From an uncultured Eubacterium sp. (GTDB lineage Bacteria; Bacillota; Clostridia; Peptostreptococcales; Anaerovoracaceae): 64,000 nucleotides of DNA. The notes beneath the pieces are model-generated. The model saw only the letters and a list, made by a program, of their open reading frames with translations. It was not told where the DNA came from and made no database searches. The first letter of the stretch is position 1, and the number at the start of each line of letters is the position of its first letter. The translations under genes were made by a program, and so were the position numbers. The DNA is taken from contig CAMNSS010000011.1 in the NCBI GenBank assembly GCA_946555345.1, forward strand, positions 48,741-112,740, in the 5' to 3' direction. Shown in pieces: positions 1-58,907 of the stretch.

Positions 1-1720
1 AGAGATTGTGGAGCAATGGTGCCTTTCAACATCAAGTTTTTCCCCTGTGGGGGCATGGGGTTATGAACAGGCTGAATGGAAGCCGGGAAATTATCTGTGG
101 ACGCGGAATGAAGTCCGTTATACGGACGGGCATATAAAATACACGACGCCGGGAATTGCCGGCGCCTTAAACAAGGCTTATGAGGCGGCGTATGCGGCAG
201 GTGCGTGGCAAGGCGAGATTGAAGGCGTTGTTTCCACCATCGAAAAAACGGTTGAATCGATTAAAGGTTTAGCGGATGAAACGAAAGCGCTTGCTGAATT
301 TGCAAACGAAAGCGCTGAAAGTGCAAAGTTGCAAGCTGGGCAGGCGGCGTCGGAAATCAATGTTGCGAACCAGCAGATCGAAACGCTTGCGCAAGAACTT
401 GAAACATTGGATAGCGCCATGAAAGCCGATTATGCAACAAAGGGGGAATTGACGGAGGTGGATACTGCGCTTGGCACGCAGATTTCACAAAATGCGGCGC
501 AGATTTCTTTGGCGGCTGAAAAAGTGCAGCAGGTGGAGATCGATGCGGGAAAGGCCATATCGGATGCGGAAGCTGCCAGAAATGCAGCGGATGCGGCAAG
601 GGAAGCGGCTTGCAAGGCGCAGGATGATTATGAGGCATTGCAGCAGCAGGCAGACGCCACGGACGCACAGCTTGCAGCGGCAAAACAGGCAGTATCAAAA
701 GCGCAGGCAGACGCCACGGCTGCGGGTGATGCAGCGGCGGCGGCACAGGAAGCGGCAAGCTCCCTTGCGGACAGGGTAAGCGTAGCGGAGACACACATCG
801 ACCAGAACGCAGAAAGCATTTCGCTTGTGGCAGCTTCCGTTTCTGATATGCGGGTTGGCGGCAGGAATTATATTTTGGAATCCAGGGATGCCCGTGATGG
901 AGAAGGTTCTAAGATCGCAGAGTTCGCACTTTCGGAGCAGTGGGAAGAAGGCAAGTCCTATGCGCTTTCTTTTGAAGGGGGGAAAGCATCGGGCGCCTTT
1001 GCGGCATACCGTGATGATGGCATCACGTTAGTTAAAAGCGGCATATCGCTTAACGAGGCAACAGGAAGGTATGAATGCACGTTTATCTGTCCTGCCCAGG
1101 CTGCGGCAGATGTGGAGGGAAATACGTTAACGATATACAATTTACCTTCTGATGCATCAGCGGGCGGGAGCGTGGGGTTCGTGAAGCTTGAGAAAGGAAA
1201 CAGGGCGACGGACTGGACGCCTGCGCCCGAGGATGGCGTCAATTATACAAATGATACGGTAGCCAGCGCTACGACTAAAATCTTGCAGACTGCGGAAGAA
1301 GTGACGATAGGAATCATGTCTGGATATACGTCCGGCAGCGATTTTGAAAAATACAAGCAGGAAATAGAAAACCTGTTCAAGGCAAATGAAGATGGCTTCG
1401 CTTTTGAGTTTTCGCAGCTTGAAGAGCGGATTGCGGCTGTGGGGGATGAAATCGTGCAAAGAAACCAGTTTATCCGGCTTGAGGCAGGCAATATCATCAT
1501 TGGGCGGTCTGATAGTCCGGTGCAAGCAAGGTTTACCAACGATGCACTTGAATTTACATATAATGGGCAGGTGGTGGCGAAATTCACCAACGAGGTTCTG
1601 GAAGTGCGGAACATCGCCGTGGAAAACCAGGTGCAGTTCGGCATGGGCTGGGCAATAAGGCCGGGCGGATACCTTGAAGGAAAAGGCTACAACCTGGATG
1701 ACGTGTGGATAGGGGGTTAA
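1..1720 (+). CDS. Tail-tip or needle protein with coiled coil, 5'-truncated
   Basis: The frame is open from base 2 and equals codons 50-621 of the complete gene at 40015-41880, where details are given. What remains is the Ala/Gln/Glu-rich coiled coil and the C-terminal structural domain. It is cut by the window edge, not by mutation, and ends four bases before the next tail gene. Confidence 0.8.
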   Translation, partial: EIVEQWCLSTSSFSPVGAWGYEQAEWKPGNYLWTRNEVRYTDGHIKYTTPGIAGALNKAYEAAYAAGAWQGEIEGVVSTIEKTVESIKGLADETKALAEFANESAESAKLQAGQAASEINVANQQIETLAQELETLDSAMKADYATKGELTEVDTALGTQISQNAAQISLAAEKVQQVEIDAGKAISDAEAARNAADAAREAACKAQDDYEALQQQADATDAQLAAAKQAVSKAQADATAAGDAAAAAQEAASSLADRVSVAETHIDQNAESISLVAASVSDMRVGGRNYILESRDARDGEGSKIAEFALSEQWEEGKSYALSFEGGKASGAFAAYRDDGITLVKSGISLNEATGRYECTFICPAQAAADVEGNTLTIYNLPSDASAGGSVGFVKLEKGNRATDWTPAPEDGVNYTNDTVASATTKILQTAEEVTIGIMSGYTSGSDFEKYKQEIENLFKANEDGFAFEFSQLEERIAAVGDEIVQRNQFIRLEAGNIIIGRSDSPVQARFTNDALEFTYNGQVVAKFTNEVLEVRNIAVENQVQFGMGWAIRPGGYLEGKGYNLDDVWIGG

Positions 1721-1723
1721 AGC

Positions 1724-3109
1724 ATGGCAGTATCTTTATCGCTTACGATTGCGCAGGGGTCGCAGAGCGTAGCTAATAACCAGACGTATGTCACGGTGTC
1801 GGTTTATGCGCATTCGACAAATGGTTCGTATAACAACAACAGCAAGCCGGGGTCCGTGGTGATTGATGGCACGTCGTACAGTTTCTCTTCCTCTTTTGCA
1901 AAGAATACGACGACCTGCGTGGCTACGGCGTCAAAATGGGTCAGCCATGCGGCAAACGGGACAAAGACTGTTTCTGCCAGTGCATCGTATGTGACCGGGG
2001 TGTCATCGGGGACGGTCTATGCATCCGGCTCGAAGGTGTTGTCCACGATCCCGCGCGTATCGGATTTGTCGGTAAGCAAGTCCAGCGTCCCCGCTGACGG
2101 GCAGGCCACGGTCACTGCGATGGCAGCCAAGAAGAGCAGCAGTTTTACGGACACCATCACGGTGAAGCTGGGCAGCTACAGCAAAACAGTGGCATCCGGG
2201 GCGGCGTTTGTGATCCCTGCGGAGTGGATGAATGCCATTTCCGGCACGTCTGCCGTGGCCACGGTGACGGTTGTCACGAAGTCTGGCAGCGCCACGATAG
2301 GAAGCAAGTCTGTTAACCTTACGGTGACTGTGCCTGCGGACGTTGTGCCGTCTATAAGCGGGATCACGGCGACGGAAGCGGTCGCAGCGGTTACAAGCAA
2401 ATTCGGCAGCAGGTTCGTGAGGACATTGTCACGGATTAATGTGAAAGTCAGCGCTGGCGGGGCATATGGTTCTACGGTTAAGTCATGTTCTGTGGTGATT
2501 GATGGCGTTACATACCAGCAGGCGGAATTTCAGTCAAATGTTTTGAATACGGCAGGGAACGTGGAAATCAAGGCAACGGTAACGGATAGCAGGGGAAGGA
2601 CGGCAACGTATGCGAAGGCGATTGCCGTGGCCGATTACTCGCCTCCCGTTATCACGTCCCTGGTGCAGTATCCGTGCAATGCGGATGGCACAAGGAATGC
2701 TAGCGGGACGCATACGAAAGTGACGATCAAGGGGAAGGTCTCCCCGGTGGAGGAGCAGAACATAAAATCCCTGGTTTTAAAATATAAGGCGCTGAATGCG
2801 GATAGCTATACGGTACGGACACTCACGGCGGAGGGATGGGATTTTGAAACCTCGGTAGTCGTGTCTGGGACTGACCCCACATCGACGTGGGAGTTCATCG
2901 CTGAAATAACGGATAAAGTGTCGATGGCAAGCCTTAGCGTGGTGACGGGCGTCCCGGTGATCTCCCGTCTTGCGGGCGGCAGGGGCGTGCGGCTGTTCGG
3001 GGAGGCGGAAAACGAGGGATTCTGGGTCGGAAATGTGGACTACACCATCACGGATGCGGAATTTGATGAACTCGTTAATTTGCTGGGGGGTGAAAAAAAT
3101 AGCATTTAA
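1724..3109 (+). CDS. DUF859-like phage tail protein
   Basis: A 461-residue Ser/Thr/Val-rich beta protein of the DUF859 kind, probably part of the tail tip or fibre. It is identical to the gene at 41884-43269, described there. It starts three bases after the previous stop, so the two are translationally coupled. Confidence 0.75.
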   Translation: MAVSLSLTIAQGSQSVANNQTYVTVSVYAHSTNGSYNNNSKPGSVVIDGTSYSFSSSFAKNTTTCVATASKWVSHAANGTKTVSASASYVTGVSSGTVYASGSKVLSTIPRVSDLSVSKSSVPADGQATVTAMAAKKSSSFTDTITVKLGSYSKTVASGAAFVIPAEWMNAISGTSAVATVTVVTKSGSATIGSKSVNLTVTVPADVVPSISGITATEAVAAVTSKFGSRFVRTLSRINVKVSAGGAYGSTVKSCSVVIDGVTYQQAEFQSNVLNTAGNVEIKATVTDSRGRTATYAKAIAVADYSPPVITSLVQYPCNADGTRNASGTHTKVTIKGKVSPVEEQNIKSLVLKYKALNADSYTVRTLTAEGWDFETSVVVSGTDPTSTWEFIAEITDKVSMASLSVVTGVPVISRLAGGRGVRLFGEAENEGFWVGNVDYTITDAEFDELVNLLGGEKNSI

Positions 3110-3496
3110 ATTGATTGATTTTATTTACCCTATTGGCAGCGTGATCGCATCCGTGAACGGAGCGTTTGATCCCAACAGGCTGTACAGCAGCCAGACATGG
3201 GTACGGTTTGCAAACGGGCGGGTGCTGGCCGGCGTGGACGAAGAGGACACAGCGTTCTCTACGGCGGAAAAAACGGGCGGGAGAAGGCGCATAAGCTGGA
3301 GGTAAATGAAATGCCAAGGCATACCCATAGTATGGTTTATTTGACAAATTGGGATGGCACAAAGGGCAGCGGGTATATCATATCAAGCACAGCAAGCGGA
3401 AGTAGTAACCAAACTGTAAATTATGTGGGCGGAAATGCCGCACACAACAACCTACAGCCGTACATTGCAGTGTATTACTGGAAACGTACGGCATGA
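3090..3496 (+). pseudogene. Tail collar-type protein, frameshifted
   Basis: Copy A of the broken collar gene at 43250-43656. The N-terminal half is in frame with the GTG at 3090 and the His-rich C-terminal half is one frame back. The break lies at the G run around 3279-3281, as in the other copy, so it is either a property of the phage or an artefact shared by both assembled copies. Confidence 0.65.
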
Positions 3497-3528
3497 TATG
3501 CGCCCTGCGGGGCGGGAAAGAAGGAGCG

Positions 3529-4002
3529 ATGGAAGAAAGGCAGGCTTTGGATGAAAGGAAAATCAGGGAGCTGTTCAAACAGACGGGAGACAGCATCCAG
3601 GCGATACTGGATTATTTCAGGCTGAAAAACAAGGTGCTGTGGGAAGGGGATGCCTGGACGTCCGGGACAAAGACAATCCTTGGCATAAGCAAATACCAGA
3701 GGATAAAGGTTTACCCGTGGAATAATCATGAAGGGGTAGAACTGGAACGGTACAATGCTGATAATTTTGGTGGGGAAGGGTTTGTCCAAGGGGTGAGCAG
3801 TGCCAGCCATTATCATACTGAAATAGCGGTTAGGTTAAAATTGAGCGGAGAGACGGTTGCTATTTCACGTGGCAATTACATACAGCATATAGGCGGCGGT
3901 AACCATGCAGCATTGGAGAACATAGGAGGCATAATAAAGGTTGTTGGTACAGAACCCCTGCTCCCGGAATCCCTCAAAAAAATCACAGAGGGGAGAGGGT
4001 AG
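3529..4002 (+). CDS. Small tail-associated protein (157 aa)
   Basis: Identical to 43689-44162, described there. The ATG at 3529 follows a GAAGGAG ribosome site and is preferred to the longer frame beginning at 3493. Its place between collar and tail-tip genes suggests a receptor-binding role. Confidence 0.65.
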   Translation: MEERQALDERKIRELFKQTGDSIQAILDYFRLKNKVLWEGDAWTSGTKTILGISKYQRIKVYPWNNHEGVELERYNADNFGGEGFVQGVSSASHYHTEIAVRLKLSGETVAISRGNYIQHIGGGNHAALENIGGIIKVVGTEPLLPESLKKITEGRG

Positions 4003-4045
4003 CTCTTAGAAGCGTTAAATCCTTCTTTGGAAAGGGGTGTGCAAC

Positions 4046-4459
4046 GTGAAGATATTCACAATCCTGAAGAAAATGGCACAGAAGCTGGGAATGGTATCGG
4101 ATTACGTCGTAGAATCCGGTAAAAGCGGGATGTGGGCTTACCAAAAATGGGATTCCAGGATTGTACGGCTCTGGGGGACGTACACGGGGAGTATTGCGGC
4201 CTATGCGCAAAGTACCTTCCTTGTACCTGTGCAGAAGTATCCATTTAAGGTATACGATGCCCATGACGTTGCTTGTGCAAGGGTGGACACTGGCAGTGGG
4301 ATATTCATTTATGGATATGACGATAAGATAGCAGGCTGGAGCGGCGTAATTGCTACAATGAATACATACCCTGCGGGGACAAAGGCAAGAATTGTCGCTA
4401 AAATCCAGGTAACCGGGTGGTGGAAGGAGTTTACCGCTGGGGAAGAGGGTAGTACATAG
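4046..4459 (+). CDS. Tail-tip protein, first tandem paralogue (137 aa)
   Basis: Identical to 44206-44619, described there. A GTG start is chosen because the leader matches that of the next gene, which has ATG at the same place. It shares about 35 N-terminal residues with the 4491-4889 product and then diverges. Confidence 0.65.
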   Translation: MKIFTILKKMAQKLGMVSDYVVESGKSGMWAYQKWDSRIVRLWGTYTGSIAAYAQSTFLVPVQKYPFKVYDAHDVACARVDTGSGIFIYGYDDKIAGWSGVIATMNTYPAGTKARIVAKIQVTGWWKEFTAGEEGST

Positions 4460-4490
4460 ATTTATTAACATTTTCAAGGGGGTGTGCAGT

Positions 4491-4889
4491 ATGAGAATAT
4501 TCACAATACTAAAGAAAATGGCGCAAAAGCTGGGGCTGATATCGGACTACGTAGTGGAAACCGGCACGTCCGGCATCTGGGCGTACAGGAAGTGGGCGTC
4601 AGGGACGGCGGAGTGCTGGGGGAGGTGGAGCGGGAACTTAAACCATTATGCAGGTCCATATGGAATGGATTTTTTCGGATATAAAACCGGGACACTGGCA
4701 TTCCCTTTTGCGTTTCAGGAAGTGCCAATCTGCATACAGTATTCCTGCAACATTGGAAACGGGTTTTCCATCGGCGCACAGGGCAGGCTTAGCACGACTA
4801 AAAGTAGCATGGTATGCTATATGCTGGCAAACATTTCGGGCAGGCAACCGGTATATGCAGATATATGCGCCATAGGCAGGTGGAAATAA
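4491..4889 (+). CDS. Tail-tip protein, second tandem paralogue (132 aa)
   Basis: Identical to 44651-45049, described there. It is the last gene before a strong intrinsic terminator at 4894-4920. Confidence 0.65.
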   Translation: MRIFTILKKMAQKLGLISDYVVETGTSGIWAYRKWASGTAECWGRWSGNLNHYAGPYGMDFFGYKTGTLAFPFAFQEVPICIQYSCNIGNGFSIGAQGRLSTTKSSMVCYMLANISGRQPVYADICAIGRWK

Positions 4890-4893
4890 CATG

Positions 4894-4920
4894 GGGGCGA
4901 AAAAACGCCCCTGTTTTTTT
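4894..4920 (+). terminator. Intrinsic terminator after the tail-tip genes
   Basis: GGGGCG and CGCCCC form a perfect 6-bp stem closed by six A, followed by TG and seven T. Large virion genes continue downstream, so late transcription must read through or restart. Confidence 0.85.
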
Positions 4921-4956
4921 ATACTTTTTTCAGAGTTTTAAAGGAGGAAACGGCAT

Positions 4957-5784
4957 ATGGCAGAAAAACCAAAATATGAACAGCCCACAGAATACAAGAG
5001 CGATTACCAGGGGCAGATAGATAATACGTTAAAAAATATAACCAACAAGGAAGCCTTTACATATGACCCTTTGAAGGACGCCAGCTACCAGGGGCTGGCG
5101 AAGCTGTACCAGAGGCAGGGGGAGCAGGCGGCAAAGAACACGATGGGGGATGCGGCTGCCCTCAACGGGGGCTATGGGTCGTCTTATGCGGTGACGGCAA
5201 GCCAGCAGGCGAGGAATGATTATAACCAGCAGCTTGCATCACAGATCCCGGCGCTCCAGGAGGCGGCGTATAACCGTTATCTGAATGATTATAACATGAA
5301 CCTCTCGGCGTTCAATGCTTTGCAGGCGGCGGATGATTCAGCATATGGGAGGCACAGGGACACCGTAGCGGACTCCCAGTGGAAATACGGGATGGACTAT
5401 CAAGGATACAGGGATGATGTGTCGGATTCCCAGTGGCAGAAGTCATATGATCGGGGCGTGTATGAGTCAGACCGGAATTACGAATATCAAAAATCCAGGG
5501 ATGCCGTCACGGATAGCCAGTGGGCGCAGGAGTTTGCACTACAAAAAAAAGCAGCGGCCTCTAGCGGGAGGGGTTCTTCTTCTAGGGGCGGGTATGGTTC
5601 TGTGAGATCTGGCCGTTCAGGCAGTGATGTTGACAGGCTGGTTGCGGCTGCGACTGATGCTGTTGGAAAAGGAATAAATGCATTAAGCTCGGCGGTTAAT
5701 TCTGGAGCGTTAAGATCGAATAAGAAACCGAAAAAAGGGCTTGCGGTTCCAATCGGCACGAGTCCAAGAGCTTTGCTTAGATAG
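4957..5784 (+). CDS. Virion protein with DSQW repeats
   Basis: Identical to 45117-45944, described there: 275 residues with three RDxVxDSQW repeats, probably an internal or ejected virion protein. It has a strong AAAGGAGG site and begins nine bases upstream of the giant gene's intergenic gap. Confidence 0.7.
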   Translation: MAEKPKYEQPTEYKSDYQGQIDNTLKNITNKEAFTYDPLKDASYQGLAKLYQRQGEQAAKNTMGDAAALNGGYGSSYAVTASQQARNDYNQQLASQIPALQEAAYNRYLNDYNMNLSAFNALQAADDSAYGRHRDTVADSQWKYGMDYQGYRDDVSDSQWQKSYDRGVYESDRNYEYQKSRDAVTDSQWAQEFALQKKAAASSGRGSSSRGGYGSVRSGRSGSDVDRLVAAATDAVGKGINALSSAVNSGALRSNKKPKKGLAVPIGTSPRALLR

Positions 5785-5793
5785 GAGATCATA

Positions 5794-8700
5794 ATGGCAG
5801 GGAAAAGGAACATAGGCAGATTAAGGAAGGCAGTGCGGAAGGAAAATACAGCCGAAGCAATCAAAAATGCGGGGCAGGCAGCAGTACGCGCAGGGAAAAG
5901 CGCAGTCGTGGCTAATACGGTAAAGCAAGGATCTTCTGCTGTACGGCAGGTTGCACAAAACGAAGGGAAAAAATATGCAGGAACAGGGCGTTCTGGCAAA
6001 CAGAGCATCCCTGAAGACAGTGCAAACAGAGTGCGGAATCCCAGGCTGGATGCTCTCTTGGAGAAATATGAGAAAACAAAGAAGGATCAAGGTTTTCTGT
6101 CCGCAATGGAAAAGTATAGGAACAAGGATTTCCTTTTTATGAGAAACGGAGAGAATGGTTCAGAACGGAATAAGCCCATCAGTATAGCGGAAATCCGGGA
6201 AACTACTAAAAAAATGCGGGAGGAGATGGCAAAGGCACAGACAAGTACGGATTCGGAAGAAGGCAGGCTCAGGAATCTGACGGAGGGAAACCTGCGCCAA
6301 ATTGCAGGAAGCCATGTCAAAACGCTGGGTGCGATTGTCGAAGGCAGCGAAACGAACATCGTCCCTGCTTCGGCTGGGAGTATCGCTTCTCCCCTTGTCG
6401 GGTTAAAGTATAGCCAGGTGGAAGAGTCGAGGAAAAATGCCCAGAAGGAAAGCGGCAAGGCAATGTCCGAATTTGGGTCAAGCCAGATTGACAAAGGCGC
6501 AGAAAAAATCAAGAAAGGCAAGGAAGGACTAAACTGGGCGGAAGCGTTTTTGGCAGATCTTTATGGTGAAGCGCTTGGGCTTGGCGCTGATGCGCTTGCA
6601 GGTCCGCTTTCAGGGGCAGCGATGTTTTCGCGTTCATTTGGCTCTGCGTATGATAGGGCTGAAAAGGAAGGCGCAACCCCTTTGCAGGCGGGGATTTATG
6701 GCATATCAATGGGTGGGGTGGATGCAGGACTGGGGAAATTGACTAAAGTGGCAAAACCCTTGCGGAAGCTTTATGGCAAAGACGCTGGCGATGATGTCAT
6801 TGATACGCTTTTGAACAAAGTGTCAGGGAAGATGGTATCGCAGAAGGGAAAGGACATCGTTTGGCATGGGGGCAAGGCGGGGGTTTCAGCGCTTACCGAA
6901 GCGCTTGAGGAAATGGTTGCGGAGGGACTTGAGCCTTCGATCGCAAACCAGATTTATGCAGAGGCGGCGGGAATCCCGCATGAGACAAGCGCAAAGGACA
7001 TCCTTTATGCAGGGCTTCTTGGCAGCGCACTGGGAGGAAGCCACAGCGGCGTCACGCAGGCCTGGGGATATTCCCAGGGACGGAAAGTGCGGGACGTGTT
7101 CGGCGAGGAAGGAACAAAAGAGCTTGCAAAAAAAGCGGCCGCAGCGGATGAAGACTCTGGCACGGGGCTTGTTGCAACAGCGATGGAAAAGATGATCGAA
7201 ACTGGGCAGGGGATCGCCGCCGGGCAGGCCAAGGAATTGTACAAGGCGGCATACCAGCAGGAGGTGAAAGACCTTGAGCGGGCGGAGCTTGCAAGAAGAT
7301 CATCTGAACGCATTATTCGCGGTGAAAACCTTGTGCCGCCAACCATAACAGACAGGGAGACGGGAAAGGAAATACTTAACGTGAATACCGCCCGCCTTTT
7401 TGATGAAAAAAAGATGCAGGCGGCCGAAGCGGTGAAAGCGATGCAGCTGCCGGGAGCAAAGGCAGGACAGATTGTGGAATCCGTGGCGCGGATTGAGACG
7501 GGCGTTGCGGGCGTAGATGACGTGAATCTTTTTACGGTGCCAAATCAGGAGGCGAGGGAGGCTTATACCGCTGTGACGGGAAAAACGCTTCCAGGGACGA
7601 ATAAGGGAACGAGGGAGGCGTTATATGAAACAATCGCTGTTAACCGCGTCAATTCGGCAAGAATGGAAACGGAAAACCATATTGACCGTATGCGCGGGGT
7701 GATCGAGCAGAACATGACGCAGGATTATGAATCCGCCGGGCAGGAAACATTTGCGCAGGTGTTTGGCAAAGTGGACGTAAGGGACGTGCCGCAGGTGGAG
7801 GATGCAGCGGTCACCTTTGATGGCTTTTACCGTGCGGGAAGGAACGGCATTGATTACGTGGATGTAGCATCAATAGAAAATCCGGCATATCAGAACGTGT
7901 CTCCAGGGGTAAAGCAGGCGGCATGGGATGCCGGGCGGCAGGATGCATTCATTGCTTCCGACACGGCGAAAGGACTTCAATTAAAGCTTGGGCAGTCCCT
8001 TCGGGAAAACCGTGTACAAACGGGGACACAAGGCACACAGGGCAGGGTTACGGCGGAACTGCCCCCGGAAGGCAAGGCATTGTTAAAGGCAAGCGACCAA
8101 GGAATGTTCCGCGCACTGGCAAGGACTTTTGGCCTCGACATCCACATTGTGGAGGAGGAAGGGGTCGACGGGGTTTACCGTGACGGGGAAGCCTGGCTGT
8201 CCGTCGATGCTGACAGAGGTCTTTCTTCTGTGCTTGCACATGAGATTACTCGTCAGATGGAAGTTTACGCACCGGAGGAATACGATAAACTGAAAGATCT
8301 TGTGCAGGCGGATTGGGCTAAGAGGGACGACATGGACGAAACCGCAGGCGAAAAGAAAAGCCAGTATGCGGAAAGTGGCGTGGAGCAGCCCCATAAGGGG
8401 GATTTTGATGATATCATCGCTAATTCCGTATATGAGATGATTCAGGATAAAGCGTTTGCTAATGAGATGTGCAGGCATCACAGGGATATTGCACAGCCTG
8501 TCTTAGATGCTGTTAAGACCGTCCAAAAAAAGCTCCGCATAGTGCTGGCAGAAGGAGAAAGATTCACGCAGAAGCAGAATGCGGCGCTCTTTTCAAATCT
8601 TGATATTCTAAAAGATTCTGAAAGCATATGGGCTGACGGGCTTATGCGGACGGCACAGAATTGGGATGCGGCAGGGCAGGCCGGTGTTTTCGGCAATGTG

Positions 8701-13767: not shown

Positions 13768-13871
13768 GGGCTGGCATATGGGGGCGGATGATAATATCAT
13801 GAGCGAGCGAAAGCGGCTTGCCGCGGACTTCCTAAAGGCTCTGTTGGGGTTAGCGGAAAGGCGTGGTGCGC

Positions 13872-16722: not shown

Positions 16723-16732
16723 GGGGCGGGTA

Positions 16733-45049: not shown

Positions 45050-45053
45050 CATG

Positions 45054-45080
45054 GGGGCGAAAAAACGCCCCTGTTTTTTT
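45054..45080 (+). terminator. Intrinsic terminator after the tail-tip genes
   Basis: Perfect 6-bp GGGGCG/CGCCCC stem, six-A loop and T-rich tail, in the middle of the late region. No clear promoter is visible in the 36 bases before the next gene. Confidence 0.85.
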
Positions 45081-45116
45081 ATACTTTTTTCAGAGTTTTA
45101 AAGGAGGAAACGGCAT

Positions 45117-45944: not shown

Positions 45945-45953
45945 GAGATCATA

Positions 45954-51900: not shown

Positions 51901-53927
51901 TCATGCGGGCGTTCATGCTGATCAGCCCGCGCTATTTTGCCAATGGGAAAATAAACACTGCAAAGAACCTCCAGGACATGAAGGCGCATTGCCAGATCGC
52001 CCGCTGGAAGTCATGGGGACACAACCAGGCGGATATGGCAAGGGACATTGGCGACATTATGATGAACAATGCGTGGATGCGCCTTGATGCGTTGGCGATG
52101 GAGCTTTACGGGAAACTGGATGACCTTACCTGGCCGGCCATTTGGGCGGCAGTCAGGAGTGAGACGGAAGCCAAGCATCCAGATGTCGCAGTTGATTCGG
52201 AAGAATTTTATGCGATTTGCAATGACAGGGCTTCTGAGATTTTCGACAAAACGCAGGCCGTCGATTCAGTTTTTCACCGCTCGCAGGCAATGCGGAACAC
52301 GGATACCATGAACGGGGCAATGGCCTCTTTTATGGCAGAACCGATGCGCACTTTTAATATGGTGCGTATGGAATTTGTCCAGGCAAGGGAGCTGTGGAAA
52401 GATGGCGAGGCGGGGAAAGCTGCGCAGAAAGCCAGCAGGGCGATGACGGTATTCACGATGAATGTTGCGTTATGCGCTGTCGCTGCTGCCATTGTGGATG
52501 CGCTCCGCAGCAGGACTGCGGGCGATGATGGGAAAGAAGACGGCTGTCTTGAAAATTTCATCGAAAACTTCGAGGACAGCATGAACCCGCTGAATATGAT
52601 TCCGCTGGCAGAGAAATTTTCGGGGGTTACCGGCGGGTGGGATTCACAGAACATGGAGCTGGAAGGGTATGCATCTCTCGTACAGTCGGCAATCGGGCTT
52701 GTCAAGGCGGACGACCCGGCGAAAGCCTTTCGGGAGCTTGCGGAAAGCATGGGGCTGGTGTTCGGCATTCCTGTAAAGAACGTCCTGCGGGATGCGAAAG
52801 CGGTCTTCAATGCGTTTGGGCTCAATGCCTTTGCCGCAGAAGCAGGCTGCGGGGAAACGCTTTCCAGGGAGAAAGAACCGCTCATGGATAAATGGGCTGC
52901 TTTGTTTGGCGGGAAGGCTTCCGGAAGGGACGGGGAAACTGGCGGGGAAAACAGGGATGAATCAGATTCGGAATACTATGGGATTTATGCTGGCAGCAAA
53001 GAAAGCTTGTGGGATAAAATCACTGACAAGACTTATTCAGAACGGAAACAGGAGGACAGGGAAAAACGGGTTTCGGATATTGAAAAGAACGTCAAAGGGC
53101 TTTCCGGCGGTGAGCGGGATGAGGCCATATGGAAGGCGGTCACGAAAAATTACATCCGCTATGTGGAGGATGGCGAAATGGATGTCTTGCGGGAGATGCG
53201 ATGGACGCTCGATAGATTAGGCGGGAACGTGGACAAGTTTGACGAGAGCATCCTTAGCAAAGTGAAAACAGCGTACAAGAAGAACATCGGGGGCGACCTT
53301 GGGATGCTGGCCATGTATGCTGAATACCTTCTTGGGCAGGGATTTACGGAGGAGAAGATCAGTAGCGGGATCATTGCCAACAGCGAGACGGCGAAGAAGT
53401 TCCAGAAACAGGTGTGCTTAAATGACTGTAATGCCGCCGCAGATGCGTTGGCGGATTTGATTTCTGCCGGGATTATGGAAAACGACATCTATGCGTTGTA
53501 TGATAACAGGACCAAGGCTATTGATGCTTCGGATTATTCCAGCGGAACGTTCCTTGCGCCCGTGTCGGGCAGGATTTCGTCGGGGTACGGATACCGGGAT
53601 GCGCCGTCGGCCAGGGCTTCTTCTTTGCGTCAGGCAATCGATATTGCCGCACCTGCTGGAGCGGATGTCGTTGCTGCGGATGGCGGTCAGGTGACGAAGG
53701 CAGGCTGGAGCAGCGGGTATGGCTGGACGGTGGAAATCCTCCACGGCAACGGTCGTTACACCAAGTACAGCCATTTGCAGGGTTACGCCGTGCAGAAGGG
53801 TGATGTTGTCAGACGAGGGCAGCTCATCGGCTATGTGGGAAGCACCGGGGTTTCAATGGAGCCGCATCTCGATTTCAAGGTCAAGGAAGGCGGGCAGTGG
53901 GTGAATCCGATGGATTATTTGCAGTAA
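45954..53927 (+). CDS. Giant polyvalent virion protein (2657 aa)
   Basis: The largest gene. The N-terminal 250 residues are basic and helical. A module near 760-850 (MFRALARTFGLDIHIVEEEG ... SVLAHEITRQMEVYAPEEY) resembles the zincin domains of polyvalent phage proteins, but the motif is HEITR (816-820) instead of HEXXH. Near 1000-1140 lies a module with VVIDGKTGIIGAAV and YKVHRILMPDGTEYVF, like the nuclease-type modules of such proteins. Long helical stretches follow, with a hydrophobic segment near 2170-2190. The C-terminus (about 2530-2657) is M23-like: Arg2559 replaces the first zinc His, Asp2563 and His2607 are kept, and the last motif is HLD (2638-2640). It is probably packaged and ejected into the host cell. 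Confidence 0.8.
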   Translation: MAGKRNIGRLRKAVRKENTAEAIKNAGQAAVRAGKSAVVANTVKQGSSAVRQVAQNEGKKYAGTGRSGKQSIPEDSANRVRNPRLDALLEKYEKTKKDQGFLSAMEKYRNKDFLFMRNGENGSERNKPISIAEIRETTKKMREEMAKAQTSTDSEEGRLRNLTEGNLRQIAGSHVKTLGAIVEGSETNIVPASAGSIASPLVGLKYSQVEESRKNAQKESGKAMSEFGSSQIDKGAEKIKKGKEGLNWAEAFLADLYGEALGLGADALAGPLSGAAMFSRSFGSAYDRAEKEGATPLQAGIYGISMGGVDAGLGKLTKVAKPLRKLYGKDAGDDVIDTLLNKVSGKMVSQKGKDIVWHGGKAGVSALTEALEEMVAEGLEPSIANQIYAEAAGIPHETSAKDILYAGLLGSALGGSHSGVTQAWGYSQGRKVRDVFGEEGTKELAKKAAAADEDSGTGLVATAMEKMIETGQGIAAGQAKELYKAAYQQEVKDLERAELARRSSERIIRGENLVPPTITDRETGKEILNVNTARLFDEKKMQAAEAVKAMQLPGAKAGQIVESVARIETGVAGVDDVNLFTVPNQEAREAYTAVTGKTLPGTNKGTREALYETIAVNRVNSARMETENHIDRMRGVIEQNMTQDYESAGQETFAQVFGKVDVRDVPQVEDAAVTFDGFYRAGRNGIDYVDVASIENPAYQNVSPGVKQAAWDAGRQDAFIASDTAKGLQLKLGQSLRENRVQTGTQGTQGRVTAELPPEGKALLKASDQGMFRALARTFGLDIHIVEEEGVDGVYRDGEAWLSVDADRGLSSVLAHEITRQMEVYAPEEYDKLKDLVQADWAKRDDMDETAGEKKSQYAESGVEQPHKGDFDDIIANSVYEMIQDKAFANEMCRHHRDIAQPVLDAVKTVQKKLRIVLAEGERFTQKQNAALFSNLDILKDSESIWADGLMRTAQNWDAAGQAGVFGNVKRYPANMSKDSPIKRQIQENLEKINAIGVVADIKSDRFKGMTDEQIIDEVMPEFRKRGAGVDRTGLGFISLKETFVNNSLNYLGGEAEYAAFAAIPNVLKKGMEIRDAGYEASGHNAALAAPVVIDGKTGIIGAAVKETKENEYKVHRILMPDGTEYVFHDSIFDPDGNDREQFSLPAPDAVNDYINAHETEFVEAPPVRDYEREGAELREQSIGELQEQVKKLRQGKRLTHGKVFDKASVEEELNSLVRTLMSHSEGTANKTDHRLVKMLAENASSVYTAMKDGDIAGAANTAWYAARDAVENLRLVDDWAFREYKELRDVMRTTAVTVSEAGRGDIPDFADFRRKNMGRLRLVDRGGIPVDTLYMELCEAYPELFSKDVTHSASQLVAMADIRAQLEPYDIMLSAEETGQLVKEAAHDLLDIAARGKPWKSWADRKTECYDGKLKAMKVRQAEALRNVKIRERMGAVRMVDRQNLKHRECKQKDRKEHIRQFGSIQENYEWLSGRLLNPADDKHIPEGFRTTVARLLQQTGLRTEWSKSLEKKYGKAQKTLQMGELKRQFAEIAKEDGSGIFEYDRQIFELMDVLSEKLEGKPIEQATNEELASIDTLLKAIASNVRNYNRAFTDGIKEEISGLAGRSIDAAKKHIEKHGNRSERSGAMGGMDIFPNESMVTPRDFFEQIGGMEEIFLAMRKGMDKHVDNLTKARGFFDEIFTPYHKGTALRKQAKPGSRIEGWRDGSQMHRIELASGRSISLSPAQVMSFYCLSKREQAQGHILGSGVVASRVDNASKLKQFFGAKVQTAGSAVMVSPADVEKIIALLTPEQRQMADRLQGYLDSECAGWGNEASMRLYGYRKFTEKDCFPLKSADQYLDSSFEGRRAAERIKDFGFTKGTAVNANNPVVIDDIFCVVSDHINKMSLYNAFAAPISDFTRVYNHKTRDGEGHMTGSVKSSIEDAYGRKAVSYIDNFLADVNGIAQMRTEDMMRFASKPLANNKKATIGGNIWAASQQPAAIMRAFMLISPRYFANGKINTAKNLQDMKAHCQIARWKSWGHNQADMARDIGDIMMNNAWMRLDALAMELYGKLDDLTWPAIWAAVRSETEAKHPDVAVDSEEFYAICNDRASEIFDKTQAVDSVFHRSQAMRNTDTMNGAMASFMAEPMRTFNMVRMEFVQARELWKDGEAGKAAQKASRAMTVFTMNVALCAVAAAIVDALRSRTAGDDGKEDGCLENFIENFEDSMNPLNMIPLAEKFSGVTGGWDSQNMELEGYASLVQSAIGLVKADDPAKAFRELAESMGLVFGIPVKNVLRDAKAVFNAFGLNAFAAEAGCGETLSREKEPLMDKWAALFGGKASGRDGETGGENRDESDSEYYGIYAGSKESLWDKITDKTYSERKQEDREKRVSDIEKNVKGLSGGERDEAIWKAVTKNYIRYVEDGEMDVLREMRWTLDRLGGNVDKFDESILSKVKTAYKKNIGGDLGMLAMYAEYLLGQGFTEEKISSGIIANSETAKKFQKQVCLNDCNAAADALADLISAGIMENDIYALYDNRTKAIDASDYSSGTFLAPVSGRISSGYGYRDAPSARASSLRQAIDIAAPAGADVVAADGGQVTKAGWSSGYGWTVEILHGNGRYTKYSHLQGYAVQKGDVVRRGQLIGYVGSTGVSMEPHLDFKVKEGGQWVNPMDYLQ

Positions 53928-54031
53928 GGGCTGGCATATGGGGGCGGATGATAATATCATGAGCGAGCGAAAGCGGCTTGCCGCGGACTTCCTAAAGGCT
54001 CTGTTGGGGTTAGCGGAAAGGCGTGGTGCGC

Positions 54032-54100
54032 ATGGCGGAATACATATTTGGTGTAATCTGCCTTGTAATTCTTTACAGGATTGTGAAGGAAATAAAATAG
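54032..54100 (+). CDS. Candidate type I toxin-like membrane peptide (22 aa)
   Basis: The frame reads MAEYIFGVICLVILYRIVKEIK: one membrane segment and a basic tail, the usual form of type I toxins. The stop codon lies in the stem TAGCCGCC/GGCGGCTA (54098-54130), which on the other strand terminates an antisense RNA. The ribosome site is weak (GGAAAGG), and a 58-codon frame (53938-54114) overlaps it, so coding is uncertain. The 600 bases between the giant gene and the collar fibre hold only this unit and one 38-codon gene. Confidence 0.4.
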   Translation: MAEYIFGVICLVILYRIVKEIK

Positions 54101-54172
54101 CCGCCCTTGCTTGATGCCCATCGGCGGCTATATGCTTATGATGTGGAAGCCGTTCTCACCGGCTTTCCTCTT
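54091..54172 (-). ncRNA. Candidate antisense RNA, type I antitoxin-like
   Basis: A leftward transcript of about 80 bases is predicted from a near-consensus promoter to a hairpin with TTTTATTT tail. It contains a second hairpin (AGCCG/CGGCT, 54149-54165) and is complementary to the end and 3' untranslated part of the small-peptide mRNA. This matches TxpA/RatA-style 3' overlap. Boundaries are estimates. Confidence 0.5.
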
Positions 54173-54178
54173 GATGCC

Positions 54179-54207
54179 ATTATAGCAGACAAGGGGATAG
54201 CGTTCAA
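54179..54207 (-). promoter_or_regulatory. Promoter of the antisense RNA
   Basis: Minus strand: TTGAAC (54207-54202), 17 bases, TATAAT (54184-54179). It is one of the best promoter matches in the prophage and has no protein gene behind it. Copy A has it at 14019-14047. Confidence 0.7.
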
Positions 54208-54230
54208 CGTGAACTATAATAAGAAAATGC

Positions 54231-54258
54231 CTTGGGGGCGAAAGCTCCCAGGTTTTTT
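54231..54258 (+). terminator. Intrinsic terminator after the small-peptide unit
   Basis: TGGGGGC/GCTCCCA stem with GAAA loop and six T after it. It closes the plus-strand transcript opposite the antisense RNA. Confidence 0.75.
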
Positions 54259-54293
54259 GTTATTGTGGGGGAAATGGAAAGGAGGGGCAAGGG

Positions 54294-54410
54294 ATGTTTA
54301 AATTTGCTGAAAAAATGGTGGAAGACCGCATCAGTGCGGGCAGCCAGGACAGTTGCATAGGCGGCGAAAGTATGGATTGGCATATCCATGCCGCAGACAG
54401 GCAGAAGTAA
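54294..54410 (+). CDS. Small phage protein (38 aa)
   Basis: ATG about ten bases after AAAGGAGGGG. The product begins MFKFAEKMVEDRISAG and is short, helical and then polar with His/Trp (DWHIHAADRQK). No domain. The good ribosome site is the main support; it precedes the collar fibre gene by 119 bases. Confidence 0.5.
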   Translation: MFKFAEKMVEDRISAGSQDSCIGGESMDWHIHAADRQK

Positions 54411-54529
54411 TGCAGGACGTTAGATATCAACTTTACAATTTGTAAAAGGCTGAGCCAAAACATAACCGGCTAAAAGGGCGGATGGCTTTGCCAAAATGCG
54501 ATGGAGGAAATGAAAACAGGAGGTAAGGA

Positions 54530-55732
54530 ATGGTAATAGATTTTAAGGTAAGAAATCAGGCGATATATTGCGACAGCCACCGTTTCGTGGCGGCGGATTC
54601 CGTGGGGTTCTTGAAAGCGAGGTTTGCTTTTGATGGGGACTGGACGGGGTATACGATAACCGCAACGTTTACAAACCTGGACACAAAGGTAAGCAAAAGA
54701 ACATTGCTTGATGAAACATATGCCTGCGAAGTCCCGCATGAAGTGCTGGCAGGGAAAGGAAGGCTGAACGTCTATGCCGAGGGGACGCGCGGCGGATCGG
54801 TAGCCACCACGGCAATGATGAAGCGCCCGCTCCCGATTAAAGAAAGCGGGAGGCGGGAAGCGGGGGGAAGCATCCCGCCGACGTCGGACATTTACCAACA
54901 GGTCATGGACAAGCTGAACGGCTTTGAGGAGGGCGAAGGGCTGAAGGGGAAAATCGCGGAAGCCGTAGAACTGTATTTCATGGAGCATCCCCCTTCAGGC
55001 GGCGGCACGGGGATACAGTCCGTCGGGATAGATGAAGGCGGGCATTTAATCGTAACGCTGGCCAGCGGCGAAACAATCGACGCAGGGATTCTGCCGAAAG
55101 GCGAACCGGGAGCAGACGGGTACACGCCGTCCATAGAAGTGGAAACCGACACGGATGTGGAATACAGGCTGAACATCGTGAACAAAGACGAAACAATCAC
55201 CACGCCGAACCTGCGGAATGACAGCACGCCGGTGGGGACTATCATAAGCTATATGGGAATGACCGCTCCTTCTGGGTATCTGGCCTGCGACGGCGCACAG
55301 CATCCGATGGCGGACTATCCCGTTTTGGCGGAACACTTCAAGGCGCAGTTTGGTTCTGCGAACTATTTTGGCGGTGACGGCGCTGAAACGTTTGCCGTCC
55401 CTGACCTGCGCGGCGAGTTCCTGCGGGGAACGGGAACGGCTGCAAGGAATACCGGGACAGGAAGTGAAGTTGGGGCGCATCAGCACCCGAGCGAGATCCC
55501 TTACACGGCAGTTTCTGGCAATTTTGACTCCTTGATTGTATATTATGATGCAAACCAGAAGAATCCTGATGACTACAACATCGTTATGTATGCAGACAAA
55601 ACGATCAATACGGCGAACCTGGCGGGGGTTACAATCAGCAAGGACGCTGCCTTTGTGCCATCCCATACAGTTATGCGGTACACAGCGCGGCCGACAAACA
55701 CGTCGGTGCTTTACTGTATCAAATGCCGTTAA
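54530..55732 (+). CDS. Tail fibre with intact collar domain (400 aa)
   Basis: Residues 1-110 are a beta attachment domain (VIDFKVRNQAIYCDS ... ATFTNLDTKVSKRTLL), and about 130-210 a linker with a collagen-like GEPGADGYTPS. Residues about 235-315 are the tail-collar domain (PVGTIISYMGMTAPSGYLACDGA ... FAVPDLRGEFLRG), and the end (HTVMRYTARPTNTSVLYCIK) is the usual collar C-terminus. Likely receptor-binding fibre. ACAGGAGGTAAGGA precedes the ATG. Because the collar gene at 43250 is broken, this may be the only complete collar protein. Confidence 0.8.
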   Translation: MVIDFKVRNQAIYCDSHRFVAADSVGFLKARFAFDGDWTGYTITATFTNLDTKVSKRTLLDETYACEVPHEVLAGKGRLNVYAEGTRGGSVATTAMMKRPLPIKESGRREAGGSIPPTSDIYQQVMDKLNGFEEGEGLKGKIAEAVELYFMEHPPSGGGTGIQSVGIDEGGHLIVTLASGETIDAGILPKGEPGADGYTPSIEVETDTDVEYRLNIVNKDETITTPNLRNDSTPVGTIISYMGMTAPSGYLACDGAQHPMADYPVLAEHFKAQFGSANYFGGDGAETFAVPDLRGEFLRGTGTAARNTGTGSEVGAHQHPSEIPYTAVSGNFDSLIVYYDANQKNPDDYNIVMYADKTINTANLAGVTISKDAAFVPSHTVMRYTARPTNTSVLYCIKCR

Positions 55733-55743
55733 CATCATGCAGG

Positions 55744-55769
55744 CAGCAAAAGACAACTGTTTTTTGCTG
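55744..55769. repeat. Inverted repeat between fibre and holin genes
   Basis: CAGCAAAA and TTTTGCTG, 8 bp perfect, ten-base loop. No T run follows beyond the arm, so it is a weak terminator or an RNA-processing hairpin. It is also at 15584-15609. Confidence 0.4.
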
Positions 55770-55851
55770 TCTCTTGCTGAAACCCTGCCATTGCAACCCT
55801 GGAACTATTACATAGATGAAAGGAAACAATGCTGGAAAGGAAGGAAAAGGA

Positions 55852-56178
55852 ATGAACAAGGAAACATCAATGGCAGTCACGAGGCTGGCTGTGGCAATTA
55901 TCCTGATGGCAAATGCCATGCTGACGGCGGCGGGGAAGAACCCGGTTCCGTTTGATGAGGCGGCATTTACCGAATGGCTGGCATACGCCGCTTCGGGACT
56001 GTCCGCATTCTGGGCGTGGTGGAAGAACAACAACGTGACCGTGCAGGCACAGGAAGCACAGAAGAGCTTGAAGGAACGCAAGCAGGATGGTGACGGCAGC
56101 GACGGGGCTGTATTCGGGGAAACAGAAGAAAGCGGGGTGAAATCGTGTTGTCTAATTCGCAGCAGCAATATTTCTTAA
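55852..56178 (+). CDS. SPP1-family holin (108 aa)
   Basis: Start at 55852 after GGAAGGAAAAGG. Two hydrophobic stretches, TRLAVAIILMANAMLTAAG (about 8-26) and FTEWLAYAASGLSAFWAWW (about 37-55), are followed by KNNNVT and a charged tail. AGKNPVPFDE between the helices and WAWWKNNNVT are typical of the SPP1 holin family. It permeabilises the membrane for the endolysin encoded in the overlapping next gene. The last 10 residues are read from sequence overlapping the endolysin start. Confidence 0.8.
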   Translation: MNKETSMAVTRLAVAIILMANAMLTAAGKNPVPFDEAAFTEWLAYAASGLSAFWAWWKNNNVTVQAQEAQKSLKERKQDGDGSDGAVFGETEESGVKSCCLIRSSNIS

Positions 56179-56882
56179 AATATGTGTATGGCTATTATGC
56201 TGGAAAGCTAGATGGAGTTAAGGGTGCGAAACATAAAGCAGCCACAAGGAGGTTTCAGAAAGGCTTCGGGCTAAAGGATGATGGCGTTTGGGGGGCTAAG
56301 ACCGATGCCAAGGCCATTGCAGTTGCCAAGGATTTGCAAGCGTTGCTCAATCAGCATGGCGCCGGCCTTGCGGTTGACGGCGTCGTAGGCTTAAAAACCG
56401 TGGCCGCAGTCGAGGCGTTCCAGAAAAGGGAAGGCCTCAAAGCTGACGGGATTGCCGGCGCAAAAACATGGGCGGCATTGAGGGGTTCGTCGGGGTCATC
56501 CGGCGGCCTGCCTTCTGGCGGCAGTTCCCAGCATTTTGCAAAACATGAGTTTAAATGCACATGCGGCGGGAGATACTGCAACGGTTATCCGGCAGGCAAT
56601 ATGTCGGCAAGCCTGCTGAACATACTGGAACGGCTGCGCAGTTACTACGGCAAGCCAATTACGGTCACATCTGGCCAGCGGTGCAAGACGCGTAACAGCC
56701 AGGTGGGCGGCGCAAGGAATTCTGCACATACCAAAGGGAAGGCAGCGGATATTTACATCCCCGGGGTGACGAATACAGCAGACGGAAGGCGCAAGGTGGT
56801 AAGCCTGGCGTATCAGTACGGGGCGTCGTATTCTTATGCTAACACAGCGCAGATGGGCAATGCTGTCCATATTAATGTGTAG
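56145..56882 (+). CDS. Endolysin: PG-binding repeats plus M15 peptidase (245 aa)
   Basis: GTG start. The N-terminal 112 residues hold two peptidoglycan-binding repeats (AATRRFQKGFGLKDDGVWGAKT and AAVEAFQKREGLKADGIAGAKTW). A Gly/Ser linker follows, then an M15_3 domain (about 130-245) with the SxHxxGxAxD motif giving His195 and Asp202, and His242 in VHINV: a complete zinc site. It should cut peptide cross-links or stems in the wall. No signal peptide, so it depends on the holin. Confidence 0.88.
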   Translation: MLSNSQQQYFLKYVYGYYAGKLDGVKGAKHKAATRRFQKGFGLKDDGVWGAKTDAKAIAVAKDLQALLNQHGAGLAVDGVVGLKTVAAVEAFQKREGLKADGIAGAKTWAALRGSSGSSGGLPSGGSSQHFAKHEFKCTCGGRYCNGYPAGNMSASLLNILERLRSYYGKPITVTSGQRCKTRNSQVGGARNSAHTKGKAADIYIPGVTNTADGRRKVVSLAYQYGASYSYANTAQMGNAVHINV

Positions 56883-56892
56883 GGGGCGGGTA

Positions 56893-57135
56893 ATGAACAC
56901 GGAAATCATCGTTGCCGTCATTGCGGCGGCAGGAGGTCTTTTGGGTTCGCTGTTCGGCGTGATGGCATCAAGCAGGTTGACGAACTACAGGATAGAACAG
57001 CTTGAAAAGAAGGTGGACAAGCACAATAACCTCGTGGAACGCACTTACCAGCTTGAACAGGCAGTTGGGATCAACCAAGAAAAGATTAAGGTGGCAAATC
57101 ATCGGATTGAAGACCTTGAGGGCTTCCATAAATAG
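56893..57135 (+). CDS. XhlA-like membrane/coiled-coil lysis protein (80 aa)
   Basis: Start at 56893 after GGGGGCGGG. The N-terminal membrane segment (IIVAVIAAAGGLLGSLFGVM) and a following coiled coil (TNYRIEQLEKKVDKHNNLVERTYQLEQAVG) are typical of small XhlA/holin-associated proteins next to endolysin genes. It may assist or time lysis. Last gene before the lysis terminator. Confidence 0.7.
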   Translation: MNTEIIVAVIAAAGGLLGSLFGVMASSRLTNYRIEQLEKKVDKHNNLVERTYQLEQAVGINQEKIKVANHRIEDLEGFHK

Positions 57136-57138
57136 GAA

Positions 57139-57176
57139 TAATTCCCCGGATCGCTTCGGCGTGACGGGGGATTTTT
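57139..57176 (+). terminator. Terminator of the lysis operon
   Basis: TTCG-capped hairpin with outer CCCCG/CGGGG stem and GAT/TGA internal loop, then ATTTTT. It marks the end of ordinary late genes and the left edge of the moron. Confidence 0.7.
57149..57170 (+). repeat. 22-bp repeat, left side of moron cassette (copy B)
   Basis: Same 22 bases as 58739-58760, 1,590 bp apart. The two AT-rich genes lie between. Confidence 0.9.
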
Positions 57177-57225
57177 CATTGCAATATTATTTTTCCTTGT
57201 GAAACGTAGAAAAAAATCAAATTGA

Positions 57226-57234
57226 TGATATAAT
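57226..57234 (+). promoter_or_regulatory. Extended -10 promoter of the moron
   Basis: TG-A-TATAAT without a clear -35 box. It sits after the lysis terminator, so the moron can be expressed from its own promoter in the lysogen. Confidence 0.5.
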
Positions 57235-57265
57235 GTATTTTAATGAATTTAAAGGGAGAAAAATT

Positions 57266-57958
57266 TTGGAGTATAATATTTATTGTGACGAGAGTTGCCA
57301 TTTGGAACATGACAATAGTGATGTAATGGTAATTGGCTCCGTTTGGTGTGAAAAACAGCATATTAAAAAAGTTAATAAGGATATTAGAAGCATTAAAACC
57401 AAGCATAACCTGAGCAGTTGGCTTGAAGTTAAATGGACTAAGGTATCTCCTGGAAAACTTGGCTTCTATTTGGATGTATTGGATTATTTCCAAAACAATG
57501 ATAACCTTCATTATAGAGCCATAGTGGCAAGCGGGAAAAAAAAATTAGACCATAAAACATATAATAACGATGATTATGATCTGTGGTATTACAAAATGTA
57601 TTTTTTAATGTTGGATTGGATCATAAAACCATTAAATCAATATAATATTTTTATGGACATAAAGGATACAAGAGGTGGAAAAAGAGTAAGAAAACTTAAA
57701 GAAGTTTTATCGAATAATAGATACGATTTTAATGGGGAGTGCATTCGACAAGTTGTCCAAATCAATTCAAGAGAATCTGAACTGCTTCAAGTGGGCGATT
57801 TAATTAGCGGGGCCATAACGCATTATAATAGATTTGGCGTTGGTGAATCTGCAAAGGGGAACGTTATAAAAAAACTCAGGAGCATATACAATCTCGATAT
57901 TAGCTCTCCTTATTCCGACGACAAGTTTAATGTGTTCCATTGGGAGGGCAGAAAATAA
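57266..57958 (+). CDS. DUF3800 family protein (230 aa)
   Basis: The TTG at 57266 is chosen: AAAGGGAG lies before it, and the ATG at 57233 falls in the promoter's -10 box. From there the protein begins EYNIYCDESCH, the standard DUF3800 start. Other conserved acidic positions are Asp131 in IFMDIKD and Gln175/Asp178 in ESELLQVGDLISGA. DUF3800 proteins are predicted RNase H-like and occur on mobile elements and in defence islands, with unproven activity. By eye the gene is far more AT-rich than the phage around it, a sign of transfer. Confidence 0.75.
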   Translation: MEYNIYCDESCHLEHDNSDVMVIGSVWCEKQHIKKVNKDIRSIKTKHNLSSWLEVKWTKVSPGKLGFYLDVLDYFQNNDNLHYRAIVASGKKKLDHKTYNNDDYDLWYYKMYFLMLDWIIKPLNQYNIFMDIKDTRGGKRVRKLKEVLSNNRYDFNGECIRQVVQINSRESELLQVGDLISGAITHYNRFGVGESAKGNVIKKLRSIYNLDISSPYSDDKFNVFHWEGRK

Positions 57959-57960
57959 TT

Positions 57961-58536
57961 ATGTCACAATTAAATTGCATGAATATAAGTGAAAATGAAC
58001 CCAAAGAGGCATTTCTTGATAGATGCTATGATGTTTTTGAAAATAATTTTTACAATCGAAATGAATCGTTGGTATATAATAATAAAATCATTTCGCTCCA
58101 GGCAGGGTTCACGGGAGGAAAGTCCAATCTTTTTTTACATATATCATCTTTAGAAAGAGGTGAAGCGTTTGATATTTTGCCCTGCAATAATACTCTTTAT
58201 AATAGCATTTGTAAATTGAATTGTATAGATGGCGATTGGACATATACTGATCATACGGGGATTAGGGATATATGTATATATCGGGCCGGTTTTGTTGGGC
58301 TTATAAAGGGCATCATACATTTAGCAAACGATAATGATAATAAGGTAAAACAATGGCAGGAATACAATAAAAAAACAGGGAAAAAGAAAAGTTTTGTTAG
58401 ATATACTGACGGAACAATAGACTATATAATCATACTCAGCGAAGGAAAATATAAGTATTATGTGATTTCGGCATACCCCGTATTTTATTATAAAGCGAAA
58501 AAAGAATTTGAACGATCTTATTTAAAAAACAAATAA
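57961..58536 (+). CDS. Moron protein, possible BECR-fold nuclease (191 aa)
   Basis: Two bases after the DUF3800 stop. The N-terminal half is not recognised. The C-terminal 85 residues (RDICIYRAGFVGLIKGIIHLA ... SFVRYTDGTIDYIIILSEG ... YYVISAYPVFYYKAKKEFERSY) resemble the Arg-rich, AYPV-ending domain of small BECR-type (barnase/EndoU/colicin/RelE-like) RNase toxins; this is a resemblance from memory. AT-rich like its partner. If it is a toxin, the DUF3800 protein could be its regulator or co-effector. Nothing in the sequence shows it to be an antitoxin. Confidence 0.5.
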   Translation: MSQLNCMNISENEPKEAFLDRCYDVFENNFYNRNESLVYNNKIISLQAGFTGGKSNLFLHISSLERGEAFDILPCNNTLYNSICKLNCIDGDWTYTDHTGIRDICIYRAGFVGLIKGIIHLANDNDNKVKQWQEYNKKTGKKKSFVRYTDGTIDYIIILSEGKYKYYVISAYPVFYYKAKKEFERSYLKNK

Positions 58537-58541
58537 AAAAT

Positions 58542-58569
58542 CCGGAGATCGCATTGCGAAACCCGGTTT
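58542..58569 (+). terminator. Weak terminator-like hairpin after the moron
   Basis: CCGG/CCGG and TCGC/GCGA arms with an ATT loop, then TTT. It is the only termination signal before attR. Confidence 0.45.
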
Positions 58570-58600
58570 CTCCTTCTGCACATGGCAGATGAGCTATTAT

Positions 58601-58653
58601 CAGTATACCAAATTCTTGACAAATGTCAAGTGTGCACTTTATTCGGTATACTG
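58601..58653. repeat. Nested inverted repeat in the attR P arm
   Basis: Outer 9-bp arms (58601-58609 and 58645-58653) around inner 7-bp arms (58615-58621 and 58624-58630). Candidate site for a recombination or regulatory protein. Confidence 0.75.
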
Positions 58654-58738
58654 TTTTATTATATGCGCATAGCGATTAATGAATGCATATGAATCAGATA
58701 TTTTTTGAGATATTTGGAAAATATGTGGCGGCTTCCCT

Positions 58739-58760
58739 GATCGCTTCGGCGTGACGGGGG
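58739..58760 (+). repeat. 22-bp repeat, right side of moron cassette (copy B)
   Basis: Exact duplicate of 57149-57170, on the att side of the moron. Confidence 0.9.
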
Positions 58761-58803
58761 TTGTTTAAGGCGCAACGGGAGGTCAAGGCATATCATGAAA
58801 AGC

Positions 58804-58825
58804 AGTTGTAAAAAAGTTGTAAAAA
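58804..58825 (+). promoter_or_regulatory. Arm-type integrase sites in attR
   Basis: Two AGTTGTAAAAA copies 11 bp apart. Only this arm is present at attR; the other stays beside int. Confidence 0.6.
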
Positions 58826-58868
58826 GAGATTGAAAATAGCTAAAAGCGTTGAAAACACTGCATTAGCG

Positions 58869-58907
58869 ATAACCCGGAGGCCGCAGGTTCGAATCCTGTC
58901 CCCGCAA
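58869..58907 (+). other. attR core: orphan 3' half of tRNA-fMet
   Basis: Identical to the attP core at 18709-18747. Upstream is phage DNA, so this is not a functional tRNA. Host sequence follows directly without CCA, which suggests that the original host gene does not encode the CCA end. Confidence 0.8.

Follow-up and report, generated by a model that had tools for sequence, protein, structure and literature searches.

The assembly of an uncultured Eubacterium sp. (G000; GCA_946555345.1; 2.85 Mb in 36 contigs) contains a contig, C11 (CAMNSS010000011.1, 112,740 bp), on which one temperate phage is written twice in a row, and the locus raises the question of whether the chromosome carries a tandem double prophage or the assembler passed twice through the DNA of a phage integrated once. 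The window analyzed here covers the last 64,000 bases of this contig (C11:48741-112740), and positions given without a contig name refer to it. An original prediction made from the window had proposed either a tandem dimer or an assembly wrapped around circular phage DNA. Our results favor the second, owing to overlaps of 55 bp between the contig ends of the genome; they do not establish a tandem dimer, and the assembly process probably generated the doubling from a single, active prophage.

The predicted identity of bases 1-18747 and 40161-58907 at a constant offset of 40,160 was confirmed, with the first mismatch at 18748. On the full contig, the exact repeat spans 40,199 bp (C11 27289-67487 and 67449-107647) with no mismatches, which rules out a chance or diverged repeat, and the full-contig comparison gives the same phage unit of 40,160 bp that had been read from the window. 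Every 56-base word that recurs on the forward strand of C11 lies inside this repeat, and two is the highest number of occurrences. A core of 39 bp is present three times, as attL (C11 27289-27327), attP (67449-67487) and attR (107609-107647). The order along the contig is host, attL in an initiator-tRNA gene, phage, attP, phage, attR and host flank; the predicted phage-attP-phage-attR-host anatomy therefore holds and is extended leftward by attL. An artefact of the window edge is likewise ruled out, because C11 contains attL and non-phage DNA to the left of the window, and the phage array is bordered by non-phage DNA on both sides. Within the window, all on the forward strand, the repeat and core comparisons place the right-hand part of the first unit as written, which begins outside the window at C11 27289, at 1-18747, with the internal attP core, identical to the 3' part of tRNA-fMet, at 18709-18747. 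The second unit as written (18748-58907; 40,160 bp) ends with the attR core at 58869-58907, after which there is no CCA. The remaining bases up to the contig end (58908-64000) are non-phage flank with an AraC-type regulator and an MFS sugar transporter identified by Pfam. The core is thus a direct repeat at both prophage ends, with the tRNA gene complete at one of them (attL). The attL core lies within a tRNA-Met(CAT) gene (C11 27255-27330), the last gene of an Asn-Leu-Met cluster, in agreement with the tRNA origin originally proposed for the core. With its C1/A72 ends and GGG/CCC anticodon stem, we take this to be the initiator tRNA.

To judge the order of the units, we compared all 72 contig ends of G000 for overlaps. 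Seven end-to-start overlaps and six shared ends (13 pairs) were found, each exactly 55 bp long, and the sole further overlap of at least 20 bp measured 25 bp. Overlaps of 55 bp are the mark of a de Bruijn graph with k=55, very probably built by SPAdes from short reads. The assembler is named from k, since we take 55 to be the last default SPAdes value for reads of up to about 150 bases; the matching named record has a title in SPAdes style as well. G000 also fits a metagenome bin, given that no 16S rRNA gene was found in it and that its smallest contig is not under 5,909 bp. A long-read assembly, which would have proven the dimer, is made unlikely by these end overlaps. An assembler working from a short-read graph can only infer the phage-attP-phage order across a distance of over 40 kb. 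Since k exceeds the length of the core, separate k-mers were required for attL, attP and attR, and the attP junction is real sequence.

These properties bear on the alternative of a true tandem double lysogen, that is, a pair of identical prophages with an intact attP at their junction, arising through a second integration at attL or attR or through integration of a dimeric circle. Two units with attP between them are what C11 literally spells out, and tandem prophages at one attachment site are known (PMC9934374, PMC8112680). Two full copies are also the outcome when the unit has twice the depth of the flank and attP has the same depth as the flank. However, a span of 40 kb cannot be bridged by reads if the assembly is a short-read one, as the 55-bp overlaps indicate, and a dimeric array whose internal attP is intact and has both its arms would presumably be unstable. 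We consider this explanation unlikely, while giving it appreciable weight.

The content of the contig is neutral between the two structures. We compared the k-mers of the contig as written with those obtained from a contig carrying one copy together with a single circle. At each of the eight k tested (31 to 500), both the k-mer sets and their multiplicities were identical. Because the multisets are equal, the contig itself, read depth and polymerase chain reaction (PCR) at the attachment sites cannot separate the two structures at a 1:1 ratio. The depth ratio and the attL, attP and attR PCR that had been suggested as checks are therefore non-deciding: by its k-mers, a dimer equals one lysogen plus one circle, and all k-mers fit a dimer. 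A difference between the copies had been proposed as an argument against an artefact; we looked for one and found none in 40,199 bp, a result that is compatible with dimer and artefact alike. Nor would k-mers separate a mixed population, in which cells with one, two or more copies, or different strains, were merged into one consensus. The resemblance of the genome to a metagenome bin speaks for such a mixture, whereas the copies are without difference (though a consensus would mask minor variants), no observation calls for it and it is more elaborate than necessary; we regard it as very improbable.

The frequency of identical phage genes on one contig was determined in other genomes. The major head protein had a match in 9 of 394 relatives, with two full copies only in G000 (the two matches in G075 are pieces of one gene). 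Terminase_3 matched in 52 of 398 genomes of the phylum, and the only equal-score pair was again that of G000, 40,160 bp apart. Phage_capsid and TerL_nuclease matched in 90 and 72 of 398 genomes, respectively, with no equal-score pair on one contig when the results were read by eye; G000 has no match to either. The three phylum samples were drawn alike and consist largely of the same genomes, with assembly types mixed. Overall, G000 aside, the genomes with a match (8, 51, 90 and 72) contained no identical same-contig pair. These results show that such pairs are uncommon and that either event, dimer or artefact, is therefore uncommon: the absence counts against a dimer, and it weighs against the frequency of the artefact too.

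The sequence around attP has the layout of an integration module. The tyrosine integrase gene (18889-20145, reverse strand; 418 amino acids; PF00589, 6.8e-23; phrog_1, 4.8e-47) lies 141 bp away from the core of attP. AGTTGTAAAAA is present as two direct copies to the left of the core (18644-18665) and as two more to its right (18864-18885), all on the forward strand, and by motif count these are predicted integrase arm sites. The motif occurs six times in the window against 0.02 expected; outside attP, its sole location is the equivalent position to the left of attR. We propose that the phage's own tyrosine integrase recombines attP with the 3' part of the tRNA-fMet gene. The same attP junction is present, exact over 66 bp, in an independent viral contig (L012; IMGVR_UViG_3300006217_002562), whose integrase matches that of the C11 phage at 99% identity and which over 4,078 bp is 98% identical to it in DNA sequence. 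Beyond the left arm, L012 continues with about 350 bp of different, unrelated DNA. As a separate observation, this relationship suggests an exchange of the integrase-attP module between phages with a common attachment site. A pattern taken from the right side of attR had no matches in viral contigs, and an Rfam scan of 18600-64000 gave no match at the gathering threshold.

In our judgement, which is also the basis of the weights given to the two alternatives above, the likely explanation is one active temperate phage, integrated once and accompanied by free attP-bearing DNA, whose loop in the assembly graph was unrolled once by the assembler. The phage itself is likely active, with excision and integrase activity predicted. 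Excision, replication or virions would give circular or concatemeric DNA amounting to about one extra copy per chromosome in the sample, and a short-read assembler that meets both the integrated copy and this free DNA would encounter a graph loop and write it out twice, with SPAdes presumably guided by coverage in its handling of such a simple loop. In favor of this explanation, besides the overlaps of the contig ends, are the gene set, which looks complete, the attP shared with L012 and the single state of a collinear sister prophage in the congener G026. Several points weigh against it. The excess of phage DNA is deduced from the finished contig alone, and a copy number of exactly two is also expected from a dimer. 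Furthermore, a search with 701 bases around attP revealed no fourth full core or attB junction in the assembled contigs of G000, and L012 is short and comes from a short-read collection, so that its attP could itself stem from a dimer. The locus is a clear example of how public genomes can mislead: when a short-read assembly shows a perfect tandem prophage, this attests to the presence of attP-bearing DNA but not to two adjacent prophages. If the dimer is true, a prophage that keeps a spare copy in an initiator-tRNA gene would be an uncommon and testable arrangement.

The attachment site has consequences for the host gene. We searched for the initiator-tRNA gene in 49 genomes, counting as a match at least 67 bases at 89% identity or more, and found it in G000 and 25 relatives. 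The attL gene is the only full-length initiator-tRNA gene found in G000, and its CCA end comes from the phage side. Its T-loop reads TTCGA, as do those of the attR core and of attP in L012, in contrast to TTCAA followed by an encoded CCA in all 24 relatives sliced (the 25th is cut by a contig edge and was left out of this count). The G of the T-loop and the CCA at attL are thus supplied by the phage side. The attR core is not followed by CCA, so the initiator-tRNA gene restored upon excision, when the flanks rejoin, would lack it. The phage-like, CCA-less attR may stem from an element that occupied the site earlier. The right flank of attR had no blastn match to the downstream stretches of the relatives (up to 1.5 kb each) and a weak tblastx match to two of them (28.6% over 105 residues).

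G000 has two matches to the PolyA_pol domain, which is tRNA nucleotidyltransferase-like, so the lack of an encoded CCA is not necessarily lethal; the idea that the prophage holds its host through the CCA is weakened accordingly. A more elaborate scenario would have a genuine identical dimer in the sole full-length initiator-tRNA gene, with the phage giving the 3' half and the CCA. Recombination of attP with attL or with attR would then remove one unit and release phage, while the tRNA gene is kept whole and the CCA-less gene is never exposed. We find this improbable. Independently of these considerations, the initiator-tRNA gene is a recurrent integration site in the genus. In four of the 25 relatives (G001, G012, G017 and G030), an integrase match lies downstream of it, no more than about 1.1 kb away. 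A second piece of the tRNA 3' part is found at 89% identity in G014 and G039, 6.8-8.9 kb away, and a weaker one (83%) in G020 and G038, the distances in all four ranging from 6.6 to 8.9 kb. The corresponding loci include L303 (G039:C15), L304 (G014:C48), L305 (G012:C19) and L274 (G001:C141).

The remaining genes of the phage, identified by Pfam and PHROG searches, were annotated in the second unit as written. On the reverse strand, the integrase gene is accompanied by an IrrE/ImmA-like M78 peptidase (21206-21619; PF06114, phrog_87) and a Cro/C1-type regulator, likely the repressor (21662-21985; PF13443, phrog_8 and phrog_9425). The forward strand encodes a DnaD-like helicase loader (25967-26620; phrog_2514, 1.8e-20), a single-strand DNA binding protein (27535-28008; phrog_44, 3.9e-45), the small terminase subunit (28599-29231; phrog_51, 5.7e-45) and the large one (29219-30637; phrog_979, 7.2e-40; PF04466 above its cut-off at C11 78037-78558). 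These are followed on the same strand by the portal protein (30648-32528; phrog_156, 3.1e-85), the major head protein (33855-34841; phrog_1357, 6.8e-85), an internal virion protein (38126-40015; phrog_511, 3.6e-61), a protein of 2,657 amino acids with a C-terminal M23 peptidase (45954-53927; PF01551, 1.2e-28; phrog_22978), a holin (55816-56178; phrog_263, 1.1e-21) and an endolysin (56145-56882; phrog_894, 1.9e-28). One unit also encodes recombination, replication and tail proteins. Judged from these assignments, the gene set looks complete, comprising integration, regulation, replication, packaging, virion and lysis functions. The 2,657-residue protein takes up a fifth of the unit, and its long middle part matches a PHROG family of unknown function. 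A DUF3800 protein encoded at 57233-57958, between the lysis genes and attR, is likely a cargo gene.

Comparison of the first 21,253 bases of the unit with a phage collection matched one record, with 3% coverage at 73.7% identity. Viral contigs frequently contain relatives of the head protein (152 confirmed stretches, the best 80 of which were kept), and such relatives were also found at 77 loci in genomes, mostly metagenome-assembled genomes (MAGs) of Clostridia from gut and rumen. Among named genomes, the nearest three comprise Gallibacter intestinalis and two Bacillota MAGs. A collinear sister prophage is present in the congener G026 (G026:C2 2413-44799; L306-L308), where it is single, has a unit of 42,347 bp and shares 65-73% DNA identity with the C11 unit in blocks, with one head-protein match in that genome. 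Its 40-bp core lies in a tRNA-Ala(GGC) gene, so that the same phage backbone is combined with another attachment site. The C11 phage is a previously undescribed representative of a familiar temperate tailed type. The titles and abstract openings returned by literature searches contained no account of this phage or of such a short-read loop.

Related arrangements have been described in other systems. In Mycobacterium abscessus, prophiT36-2 is reported to consist of two different phages in tandem, each detected as a virion by PCR (PMC9934374). C11 resembles it in that head-to-tail units share one attachment site and are separated by an att site, and differs in that its copies are letter-identical and known from the contig alone. 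In semi-induced prophages, integrated and circular forms coexist, and attP reads reveal excision and cause cycles in assembly graphs (PMC9104695, PMC8682789); those methods work from reads or graphs, whereas the C11 case is known from a finished contig. SPAdes path extension, with chimeric loops in RNA data, is treated in PMC6736328, and PMC9176272 concerns tandem rRNA and not prophage. Compared with the temperate tailed phages of Clostridia that reside in tRNA genes, the C11 phage is unlike them in using the initiator-tRNA gene and in being without a close match in the phage collection over the bases compared; it likewise has a tyrosine integrase gene beside attP, a core formed by the 3' part of a tRNA gene and a full set of structural and lysis genes.

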